Assembly: GCA_963854735.1 (NCBI GenBank)
Contig: OY978098.1
Location: 2,864,001 to 2,928,000 of the forward strand
Source of the DNA: Marvania coccoides
Lineage: Eukaryota > Chlorophyta > Trebouxiophyceae > Chlorellales > Chlorellaceae
DNA length: 64,000 nucleotides
Direction of reading: 5' to 3'
The first letter of the stretch is position 1; each line of letters opens with the position of its first letter. Both the position numbers and the translations under genes were made by a program. The notes below the pieces were generated by a model, which worked only from the letters and a program-made list of their open reading frames with translations, was not told where the DNA came from and did not search any database. This document shows, piece after piece, positions 4,902-60,708 of the stretch.

Positions 4902-4984
4902 AGGCTGGGGTCGGAGGTTCAAGCCCTTCATTTGGCACTGGCTTAATGTCAAATTAGCTCAGTTGGCAGAGCACAGTGAGTTCA
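4902..4984 (+). tRNA. Permuted tRNA-like locus (3' half before 5' half), possibly degenerate
   Basis: The 3' half comes first. 4903-4907 is the 3' strand of the anticodon stem and 4908-4912 the variable loop. The T-arm stem is GGAGG/CCTTC (4913-4917, 4925-4929) with loop TTCAAGC. Acceptor 3' strand ATTTGGC is 4930-4936 and discriminator A is 4937. After ten bases the 5' half starts: acceptor GTCAAAT (4948-4954), TA, then D-arm GCTC-AGTTGGCA-GAGC (4957-4972). The acceptor strands pair over all seven positions with one G-U. Anticodon stem CAGT pairs with GCTG, with one G-U. Nucleotide 32 (A) can pair with T 4899, as in eukaryotic tRNA introns. Defects: G31-G39 mismatch, G instead of U at position 33, and no T-run until about 5118. 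With a 37/38 break the anticodon would be UUC; another break gives GUC. It may be a pseudogene. Confidence 0.55.
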
Positions 4985-5493
4985 GACTAACAGTAGACAA
5001 AAGATTGCGAAAAAGAAAATCTTGCCAAAGTTGTTGCCACTAGCTAACAGATTACCTGTTCCTTATCGTCGCAGGCTTTCATATCTATACATAAACAAAT
5101 CCTCTAAGGATACCAACTTTTTTTTTCTCGAACATTATCCTCCGCACTTGCACTGCCCTCCACCAGGAACGCGCGCCAGCGCTCGCGGTGGTGACTGCGG
5201 CGCCCACGGCGAGGGACCTACTCCAGCTGGAGGCGGCAGACCTTTCCCTGGTGGCGGACCTTTCCCTGGTGGCGCCCTGGCGAGGGCGCACTCAGAGCGC
5301 GTGAGAGCGGCGTGATGGGAGAGGTACGAGAGGAGCCCGAGATGGTACGAGGGCGCCCAAGCCTTTGATGATGGAGGCGGCGCCGGGCCACAAAATTGTG
5401 TAGATACTTTTTTACTCGCCCAATTCATTTTGGTTTCCCATTGTCTAGGCTGTAAAGCGCCCGGGCTTGCAAATAAATAGGTTCATATAAAGT
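4985..5493. other. Spacer with no gene recognised
   Basis: Contains a T-run at about 5118-5127 and a GC-rich patch (5150-5300) with a short direct repeat (cctttccctggtggcg, twice, near 5240 and 5257). No domain or splice structure is seen. Confidence 0.5.
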
Positions 5494-57685: not shown

Positions 57686-60600
57686 ATGGCCACCAAGCTG
57701 CCTACTAAACGCTCTGAGCTTCTCAAAGACCGAAATGACAAGCTCAGCGCGCAGGTGGCGGTGCAGCGCCAGGAAGTCAACCGCCTGCACCACCGTGTCG
57801 ACGAGCTGCAGTCGCAGGAAGAGCGCCAGCAGGAGACCATGCTGTGCGTCAATCGCCTCTGGGAGGAGCTCAACGACTCCATAGCCTTCCTTTCCTTCAG
57901 GTGACTACTGCGGAACAGCATGCTGGGATTGCTTAATTTTCTCCGTCTCCTACGGTACAGTGTTTTATTCTCCTTTTCACCACCTCCATTTTATTATCAT
58001 GTTTATGTGACCATGCAGGGCCACTGGCTCCCTGCAGCGGGAGCGCAGTGAAGCTGGCGAGGCTGCCGACTCCGAGCTCCTAGAGGGCACCAACCCCTTT
58101 CTGGCCAAGCTGCTCACCGCTTTTCTTCCAGACGACCGCCCAGCCACTGCAGCTGCCAAGAAGCTGGAGGACGGCGTCACTGAGGTAGAGGCTCTTCTAC
58201 GCAAGCGCATGGAGGCCACCATGGCCGCCGCGTGTCGCGTGCTGGAGGAGCTTGAGACGCTGCGTAACGGTGGCGGCACCCCCTCCCCAGACGGCTCGGC
58301 ATCCAAGGAGTCGCAGCTGGTGGCCATGAACAACCTGCTCAAGGCCGAGAACAACCGGCTCAGGGACCAGGCGCTGGCAGACGCCTCGAAAATCAAGGAA
58401 CTGCAAACGAACTTGGCCGGTGAGAGAGAAGTCTCGCGGAAGAAATCAGTTTAGTTTTTTTCTTCTTTTCAACCGTTTGTATTTGCTTGCCCTGCTTGCA
58501 GACAAAGAAGACGAGCTACTGGTAGCCCACCGAAAGGTGGTGCAGCTGAAGGAAGCTGCCGCCAATGGGGGAGGGCCGTCGCCTGCCGTCAAACAAGAAG
58601 CAGGGACTGCGACAGCATCGGCACCAGCGCCGGCGGTCAAGACCGAAGATGGCGGCGCTGCCTCCGCCCAGCAGCAGCAGCAAGAGACGGGTCCCAGCGT
58701 GGAGCACTTCCAGCAGCTGGTGGCGCGGCGGGAGACCGAGCTGGAGCAGCGCGACGTGGCTTTGAGCAAGACAGAAAGGTGAGAACGTTCAAAAAAACAG
58801 CAAAAAAAACGGTGCCGAAGTCTGGCGCGCTGATCCACTGCGCTAAGGCGACGTCCCTCGGTGTCGAGGGCAGACAACATAACTTTCGTTATAGTTATCG
58901 CCTGCGGGGATCGAACCCGCGACCTCCAGATGACCATCTGGGCGCCATCAAGGCGGCGAAAAAGCAGTCTGCAAGAATTTCGAGCGGGTCCTGATACGGC
59001 GGAGGCTCCTGGCTTTTGGGAACTCACTGCAACTAACCAACTTTCTTTCTTTTCTTCATTTCATCTGCTATGCAGGGAGGTGAGGGACCTGCGCGCCAAG
59101 CTGTCGTCCGAGCGCGAAGCCGCCGCCCGCGCCCGCCAGTACGCGGGTGACCGCGCCCACCACCTCAGCGCTGAGCTCGACGGGTTGGACGCCCGCCTGC
59201 GGGAGACGCAGCGCGACAGAGACCACCTGCTGGCCAGGCTGCATGACGCGCAGATGGACGCGGAGCGCGGGGCGGCAGCTGGGCGGCGGCTAGCCGCGGC
59301 AGGGGCCCACGTGGCCGACCTTGAGGAGCAGCTGGCATCCGTGAGGGCCGCCCGCGCCAAAGCAGAGGCCCAGGCGCACCGCCTCCGCGTGGAAATGGGC
59401 AACGCCCGCACTGCCGAGCAGTTCTCCGAGCTCGCGGCTGCGCTGGAGCGCGACGTGGTGGGGCTGCGGCAGGCCAGGGACAAGTACAAAGTGGCGGCAG
59501 AGGGCAAAGAGGCAGCGCACGCGGCAGCTGCGGACGCCGCCTGCAGCTTGAAGGAGACCCAGGCAGCGCTGGGGGCGGTGAAGGCGCAGCTGGAGGAGGC
59601 CCGCGCGGCGCTGGCAGCCGCTGCAGCGGGGCAGCGTGCGGCGGCGGAGCGGGAAGAGGAGCTGCGTCTGTTTGCCGAGGTGGCCCAGACCTTCCTGGGC
59701 GGGTCGCAGGAGGACACTGCGGCCCTGCAAGCCCAGGTGGCTTCTTTCCTGCAGCAGCAAGCAGCGGCGGTCGAGGCTCGGCTGGTGGCGGCGGTTGCAG
59801 CCTTGTCTCCCAGGGAAACAGAGCTTGCTGCGAGGGTGGGGGCCCTCCAGGAGGAGCGCGTCGCGCTGCAGGCGCGGGTGACTGCGCTGGAGCGCGAGAC
59901 TGCGCGGCTGCGTGCTGAGGCTGGTGCCCACAAGGAGGAGAGCGACGCGTACGCGAAAGAGGTGGAAAGCATGGCTGATGCGTACGAGTCGGCGCAGCAA
60001 GACAACGCAAAGCTGCTCAAGGCCATCGCCACCCGCGACGCCGACAACACCCACCTGCTGGGCGAAGCTGCCGCCGCCACGCGCGAGCGCTCAGCGATGA
60101 TGGAGGAGCGGGACTCGGCGGTAACGGGGGCGCGCAGGGCGGAGGAGGCCGCGGCAGCTGCAGCGGCGCGCGCCTCTGAGCTGGAGGCCCGTGCCATGGC
60201 GTTGAAAGACGATCTGGATGCGGCCCGCAAAGAGGCACGGCAGCTGGCAGCCAGGGCCGATGTCGCGGTGCGCGACCTGCAGGCGGCGCAGACGGCTGTG
60301 GCGGCTGCCACGCGCGACGTGGAAGCTGCCCGGAAGGAGGTCTCAGCGCGCGCAGCGGAGCGGGATGCCGAGGCGGAGGCGCTGAGGAAAGAACGCACCA
60401 GGGCTGAGCACGCTGAAGCTGACGTTGCAGATCTCAGAACGCGCGCTGAGCGCATGCAGCGGTCGATGTCCGCGGGCGACGGCGGCGGCGCCGGCGGCAG
60501 CGGCATTGCTGCCGAGTGCACCGCCCTGCGGAAGATGGTCAACTGCAACGTGTGCCACACCCGCCTCAAGGACCGCATCATCACAAAGTGCAACCACATC

Positions 60601-60708
60601 TTCTGCTCTCACTGCATCGACGTCAATCTGGCCAACCGCCACCGCAAGTGCCCTGGCTGCGGAGACAAGTTTGGTGCGTCTGACGTGAAACCCTTCTACT
60701 TCACGTAA
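57686..60708 (+). CDS. BRE1: BRE1-type RING E3 ubiquitin ligase (histone H2B)
   Basis: Four exons: 57686-57900, 58019-58419, 58502-58778, 59076-60708; 841 residues. It is coiled coil almost throughout (NDKLSAQVAVQRQEVNRLHH, later LRAKLSSEREAAARARQYAG and a very long Ala/Arg/Glu helix), with WEELNDSIAFLS near the start as in BRE1/RNF20. The C-terminal RING is CNVCHTRLKDRIITKCNHIF, CSHCIDVNLANRHRKCPGCG, ending DVKPFYFT, a close match to the BRE1/HUB class. The enzyme, usually with RAD6, monoubiquitinates histone H2B during transcription. The third intron (58779-59075), at 297 bases among the longest here, contains a permuted tRNA-Arg gene on the opposite strand. Confidence 0.93.
58802..58809 (-). 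terminator. RNA polymerase III terminator (T8)
   Basis: Eight T on the transcribed strand, five bases after the 5' half of the permuted tRNA-Arg. Confidence 0.85.
58815..58931 (-). tRNA. Permuted tRNA-Arg(UCG), 3' half upstream of 5' half
   Basis: Transcribed right to left. The 3' half is 58931-58896: A38, anticodon stem TCTGG, variable AGGTC, T-arm GCGGG-TTCGATC-CCCGC, acceptor AGGCGAT, discriminator A. A 43-base linker follows (58895-58853). The 5' half is 58852-58815: acceptor GTCGCCT, TA, D-arm GCGC-AGTGGATCA-GCGC, G26, anticodon stem CCAGA, loop CTTCGG. The acceptor pairs over 7/7 (one G-U), the anticodon stem 5/5, the T-stem 5/5 and the D-stem 4/4. Joining 37 to 38 gives the loop CTTCGGA with anticodon TCG. 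The break is at the canonical intron site. C32 can pair with the G three bases before A38, leaving a three-base bulge, as tRNA splicing endonuclease expects. A T8 terminator follows. It lies antisense in intron 3 of the BRE1-type gene. Confidence 0.93.
58855..58892 (-). other. Two hairpins in the permuted-tRNA linker
   Basis: Read on the minus strand, ATAAC-GAAA-GTTAT (58892-58879) is a five-pair stem with a GNRA loop. CCCTCG-ACAC-CGAGGG (58870-58855) is a six-pair stem. Together they fill most of the linker between the discriminator base and nucleotide 1. Confidence 0.8.

Follow-up and report, generated by a model that had tools for sequence, protein, structure and literature searches.

We identified a circularly permuted gene for tRNA-Arg(UCG) at positions 58815–58931 (minus strand, coordinates exact) of the window, by which we mean the whole 64,000-nucleotide stretch of DNA analysed here. 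We are confident that it is a genuine permuted nuclear tRNA gene of type II (junction 37/38) that is apparently single-copy and forms a transcription unit of its own, antisense within an intron. On the minus strand the order is 3′-half (35 nt), spacer (44 nt), 5′-half (38 nt), trailer (5 nt) and T8, with the following features:

58897–58931, minus strand: 3′-half, tRNA positions 38–72, encoded first; carries the whole T stem (5/5) plus the 3′ side of the acceptor and anticodon stems
58853–58896, minus strand: intervening sequence of 44 nt, the prospective acceptor loop
58815–58852, minus strand: 5′-half, tRNA positions 1–37, anticodon TCG
58802–58809, minus strand: T8 run, putative Pol III terminator, beginning after the 5-nt trailer
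58807–58813, minus strand: trailer strand of a 7-bp helix beside the 37/38 junction (bulge-helix-bulge-like)
58933–58939, minus strand: leader strand of that helix

The first-pass annotation of this DNA had proposed a permuted tRNA-Arg(UCG) with swapped halves, complete stems and a T8 terminator, and all of this was borne out. When the halves are rejoined, stem complementarity is complete in the acceptor (7/7, one G-U), D (4/4), anticodon (5/5) and T (5/5) stems of the cloverleaf, with CUUCGGA as the joined anticodon loop and UUCGAUC as the T-arm loop; the discriminator is the first A of the spacer. Two hairpins are predicted in the spacer, and TTTT is absent from both the spacer and the tRNA halves. 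ARAGORN called the rejoined sequence with CCA added as tRNA-Arg(tcg). A leave-one-out covariance model in permuted order, trained on 18 rearranged tRNAs from the same genome with Arg-UCG excluded, scored the locus at 58.7 bits (E = 1.2e-17), and its sole further match across the 64-kb window was at 4902–4984 on the plus strand (52.5 bits); the corresponding model with Arg-UCG in the training set gave 63.8 and 52.7 bits, respectively. A stem-by-stem scan gave two hits on the window, against zero once the window was reversed, and fired in 10 of 1,480 trials when the sequence downstream of the T-arm was shuffled. Run on the window as it stands, ARAGORN reported no tRNA genes, even with introns of up to 250 nt allowed, and Rfam gave no tRNA match at gathering cut-offs, as expected because the genes are permuted. 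Ordinary neighbouring tRNAs can imitate the permuted model, with organelle loci reaching up to 45.5 bits; beside Arg-UCG, ARAGORN called no ordinary tRNA, with or without introns, and no tandem of ordinary tRNA genes flanks it.

The 7-bp junction helix appears in the constrained fold, and the minimum-energy structures of both the precursor and the rejoined tRNA are non-cloverleaf when folding is unconstrained. The leader repeats CCAGA (58926–58941, minus strand), so that CCAGAT-GGTC-ATCTGG could form a decoy anticodon hairpin; once the leader is at least 10 nt long, this hairpin beats the constrained cloverleaf by a margin of 1–5 kcal/mol, and folding the precursor without constraints gains a further 5 kcal/mol. 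Across the 18 permuted genes of the genome, pairing of the leader with the loop plus trailer was at best weakly above that of swapped partners under four settings (P = 0.03, 0.05 and 0.09 with four or five loop bases included and 0.21 with two).

The first-pass annotation had called for a search for an ordinary second tRNA-Arg(UCG) gene, and patterns for the anticodon arm and the end of the 5′-half found none. The joined 17-nt anticodon arm had no genome match at zero or one mismatch and one match at two mismatches, at a locus without an ARAGORN tRNA. This pattern is blind to any copy with an intron at 37/38, whereas the last 18 nt of the 5′-half are not; these matched only their own locus at zero or one mismatch and three places at two mismatches, and neither of the two places inspected holds a tRNA. 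The 161-bp Arg-UCG locus likewise matched only itself. CGA accounts for 19 of the 345 arginine codons in ten long open reading frames of the window, which are uncurated as genes. A tRNA-Arg(ACG) gene is present in the genome, and by wobble its product could decode CGA after inosine editing, so the Arg-UCG gene need not be essential. We infer its transcription, circular intermediate, acting ligase and decoding function.

The annotation had also placed the tRNA on the antisense strand of a BRE1-type gene, within an intron, a placement that the gene model and homology both uphold:

57686–60708, plus strand: host gene, BRE1/HUB-type RING E3 ubiquitin ligase, four exons
57686–57900, 58019–58419, 58502–58778 and 59076–60708, plus strand: host exons
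58779–59075, plus strand: host intron 3, GTGAGA...ATGCAG, 297 nt, containing the tRNA in antisense

The host reading frame encodes 841 amino acids and ends in a RING domain. Among five relatives the best is a hypothetical protein from Nannochloris sp. 'desiccata' (54% identity over the full length), and a relative in Micractinium carries the name BRE1-like. Going by this one match to Nannochloris, the alga probably stands close to that genus. The Nannochloris protein aligns without a gap over the join of exons 3 and 4, and 58779–59075 is therefore an intron with the tRNA antisense inside it. For intron 2, four acceptors leave the frame open, of which 58501 agrees with the Nannochloris homologue.

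We considered whether such a placement is common to permuted genes and rejected this, as Arg-UCG alone stood out: in a coding-potential scan of all 18 permuted genes, with splice sites sought up to 260 nt away (about 300 nt of flank per side for Ser-GCT, Ala-CGC and Ala-TGC), it was the sole intronic one. The first-pass suggestion that an intronic, antisense site is an undescribed theme has to be narrowed, given that PMC5358760 already describes a Pol III unit in such a position (the Polr3e MIR), and that the same genome holds a contiguous, intron-containing tRNA on the minus strand (locus L102), which lies antisense in an intron-like gap flanked on either side by coding potential. We read the latter by eye as a putative Ser(CGA) and the surrounding gene as eIF3c-like, a putative name. 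At L071, a contiguous plus-strand tRNA lies in sense orientation in an intron-like gap, also with coding potential on both sides. ARAGORN named the intron-bearing tRNAs at L071, L102 and L106 Thr(tgt), Gly(ccc) and Ser(tga); by eye we read them as putative Ser(TGA), Ser(CGA) and Ile(TAT).

Permutation proved to be widespread in this genome (22.46 Mb, 15 contigs). Two contigs, of 49.0 and 99.9 kb, look like organelles and hold most ordinary tRNA matches; their GC contents are 28% and 33% (one sampled locus each), and open reading frames of the 99.9-kb contig read as plastid genes. Only 9 of 62 tRNA-family matches were nuclear (63 of 454 first-look candidates were scored), and we therefore listed T-arm B-box patterns. 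GGTTCRANYCC occurs at 86 nuclear places, all examined (78 new, 6 known tRNAs and 2 in the window), and AGTTCRANYCT at 98 listed nuclear places (3 known, 81 examined and 14 left out); the census covers these two T-arms. By combining covariance-model scans, the stem scan and reading by eye, we identified 18 permuted nuclear tRNA genes at separate loci, all read as having the junction at 37/38:

First nine: Arg-TCG, Met-CAT, Gly-GCC, Leu-CAG, Thr-CGT, Glu-CTC, Arg-CCT, Ser-GCT, Asn-GTT
Other nine: Phe-GAA, Ala-CGC, Leu-CAA, Thr-TGT, Arg-CCG, Ile-AAT, Arg-TCT, Val-CAC, Ala-TGC

ARAGORN recognised the rejoined sequence in 18/18. Among the 16 genes outside the window, eight scored at least 52 bits with the model and six between 20 and 37 bits; Ala-TGC scored 11.7 bits (E = 0.21) and Gly-GCC went unreported, and both rest on the stem scan. 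The low scores overlap those of neighbouring ordinary tRNAs, so the weaker permuted calls depend on half-to-half matching. With 17 contiguous nuclear genes counted (9 + 4 + 4), permuted genes make up 18 of the 35 detected, both numbers being lower bounds. The count leaves out partial second copies of Leu-CAG, Ala-CGC and Ala-TGC and a second Lys 3′-half (L097). At L183, ARAGORN gives His(gtg) within the locus, and the rejoined sequence has no clear anticodon.

Three of the 18 genes yielded a full 5′-half only once an internal stretch, read here as GTRAG...YAG, was removed. One is the second permuted gene of the window, Met(CAT); the others are Leu-CAA and Val-CAC:

4902–4936, plus strand: 3′-half of permuted Met(CAT)
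4937–4947, plus strand: intervening sequence, 11 nt
4948–4975, plus strand: 5′-half, exon 1
4976–5074, plus strand: candidate intron of 99 nt in the 5′-half (anticodon stem), GTGAGT...CTAAC...CGCAG
5075–5083, plus strand: 5′-half, exon 2, which restores the 5-bp anticodon stem and the anticodon CAT
5118–5126, plus strand: T9 run, putative terminator, 34 nt downstream of the tRNA
Locus L101, minus strand: candidate intron of Leu-CAA, 81 nt, D-loop, GTAAGA...ATCAG
Locus L144, minus strand: candidate intron of Val-CAC, 88 nt, D-loop, GTAAGA...TGCAG

These interruptions are apparent spliceosomal introns at unusual positions; the other tRNA introns that we read in the genome lie at or near 37/38. 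We scored every deletion of 20–199 nt for its ability to repair the cloverleaf. Among GT...AG deletions, the proposed one scored 31 against 23 for the next in Met (27 candidates), 31 against 13 in Leu (14 candidates) and 28 against 8 in Val (14 candidates), where it tied with one deletion that overlaps it. Among all deletions the proposed ones ranked 2, 1 and 4, with 8, 49 and 23 ties (Met, Leu and Val, respectively), and cloverleaf repair alone therefore leaves the intron ends unfixed. Repair admits an exact GTRAG...YAG pair in all three genes, and the joint chance of three such pairs is of the order of 1e-8, a rough, post hoc reckoning from counts and the donor consensus. A branch-site-like YTAAC lies at −31, −40 and −30 in the three introns; in 37 crude introns of the window, true and false mixed, the branch motif occurred in 5%, compared with 10% of shuffled sequences. 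The interruptions may also be removed in some other way, for instance by the tRNA endonuclease.

On balance, we lean towards the view that permutation is the commonest nuclear tRNA layout in this genome and that some permuted precursors (Met-CAT, Leu-CAA and Val-CAC) are interrupted by true spliceosomal GU-AG introns. If this is true, production of a single tRNA would call on the spliceosome, on the tRNA endonuclease together with circularisation, and on RNase P and tRNase Z, and the GU-AG introns, if spliced, would bring the spliceosome into tRNA maturation. Judged by titles and abstract openings, no publication that we found describes a tRNA gene with a spliceosomal intron. In fission yeast, the U6 snRNA holds an mRNA-type intron and so provides a case of a Pol III transcript with a spliceosomal intron, which is what we propose for the Met, Leu and Val tRNAs; that RNA is, however, an snRNA and not a tRNA, and splicing of the tRNA siblings is deduced from their sequences.

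Arg-UCG might also owe its transcription to Pol II, being excised from a long antisense transcript through BRE1 without a promoter of its own. We found no TATA-like promoter upstream of the gene, and leaders of the 18 permuted genes showed no enrichment of a TATA-like element; such a promoter, as in Cyanidioschyzon merolae, is typical of permuted tRNA genes but not defining, and for green-algal ones PMC3978253 describes only a vague AT-rich region upstream of some. The GT-AG introns in three siblings also suggest contact with Pol II-type processing. Against this, termination looks Pol III-like: T8 stands right behind the 5′-half of Arg-UCG with no such run inside the gene or its spacer, and TTTT follows the 5′-half within 12 nt in 16 of the 18 genes (background 5.4%), the T runs of Met-CAT and Leu-CAA coming after 34 and 15 nt. 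Spacers across the set measure 7 to 112 nt, and one of the 18 contains TTTT. We consider a Pol II origin improbable. About equally unlikely, in our judgement, is that the antisense unit serves mainly to regulate BRE1 through transcriptional interference in the manner of the Polr3e MIR. The geometry is the same, in that a Pol III-type unit runs antisense within an intron (PMC5358760), but the other 17 permuted genes lacked intronic antisense placement in the scan, and the position of Arg-UCG therefore looks incidental. The Polr3e MIR of mammals, likewise transcribed by Pol III and lying antisense within an intron of a gene read by Pol II, is a repeat with measured interference according to PMC5358760, whereas Arg-UCG is a tRNA gene. 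Least credible of all is that Arg-UCG is a dead relic, its unexpressed halves left by tandem duplication of ordinary tRNA genes, a reading to which the mimicry of permuted order by neighbouring tRNAs and the partial duplications at its siblings Leu-CAG and Ala-CGC lend some colour, but which sits badly with intact stems, a T run in place, the failure of genome searches with the anticodon-arm and 5′-half-end patterns to find a second copy, and leader/own 5′-half and trailer/own 3′-half scores that did not exceed those of swapped pairs across the 18 genes (lowest P = 0.20).

One own-pair score was high, that of the Leu-CAG trailer, and is due to its second partial copy. By eye, the Arg-UCG leader resembles a decayed 5′-half; we rejected this, as the alignment score was reached in 160 of 2,000 shuffles.

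For the permuted, Pol III-type gene that we favour, processing would follow the pathway demonstrated in other algae, as summarised in PMC3978253. Pol III would transcribe leader, 3′-half, spacer, 5′-half and trailer, ending at T8. The tRNA-splicing endonuclease would then cut the precursor at the junction beside the leader–trailer helix, a ligase would join position 37 to 38 to give a circle, and RNase P and tRNase Z would excise the spacer at the acceptor end, after which CCA would be added. The genome encodes tRNA_int_endo domains (PF01974) at two places and an RtcB gene (PF01139). A B-block (TFIIIC) match scored 46 bits; this family also matches in 8 of 14 prokaryote controls, and the match is therefore weak evidence for TFIIIC.

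The kind of gene is already known; what is new is its context, with 18 of 35 nuclear tRNA genes permuted, three of them with GT-AG introns and Arg-UCG intronic. A 2014 review counted 34 permuted genes in six algae and one archaeon, and its type II examples come from Ostreococcus, Micromonas, the Bigelowiella nucleomorph and Cyanidioschyzon merolae (PMC3978253). As described there, those genes share with ours a 3′-half before the 5′-half, a 37/38 junction, a short spacer and a downstream T stretch, and ours differ in lineage, in the GT-AG introns of three genes and in the antisense intronic position of Arg-UCG. C. merolae has 11 permuted genes of 43, compared with 18 here, and spacers of 7 to 74, compared with 44 in Arg-UCG; those of Gly-GCC (86) and Ala-TGC (112), discriminator counted, exceed the 74-bp maximum given in that source. 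The first-pass annotation rightly named Cyanidioschyzon and prasinophytes as carriers of permuted tRNA genes, but the phenomenon is not limited to them: Auxenochlorella UTEX 250-A, also a trebouxiophyte green alga, is reported to have such genes, which were found later, its tRNAscan-SE set having been incomplete (PMC12636532). Permuted tRNA genes are usually treated as rarities. A compact green-algal genome with 18 of 35 permuted would open their promoter, processing and origin to testing, and this share illustrates how large a part of a tRNA set can escape ordinary annotation.

Several permuted loci carry additional partial units. Ala-CGC (L091, from position 280, plus strand) has a tandem second 5′-half with its own T run, and a similar extra 5′-half is described for Ostreococcus Cys-GCA in PMC3978253. 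Leu-CAG (L047, 293–469, plus strand) has a second unit with a truncated 3′-half. Ala-TGC occurs as two permuted copies on contig C5 (L158 and L159), about 4 kb apart on opposite strands, the second without a matching 3′ anticodon strand. In the trailers of many of the 18 genes, GC often directly follows the T run, as in TTTTTGCAC or TTTTGCT.
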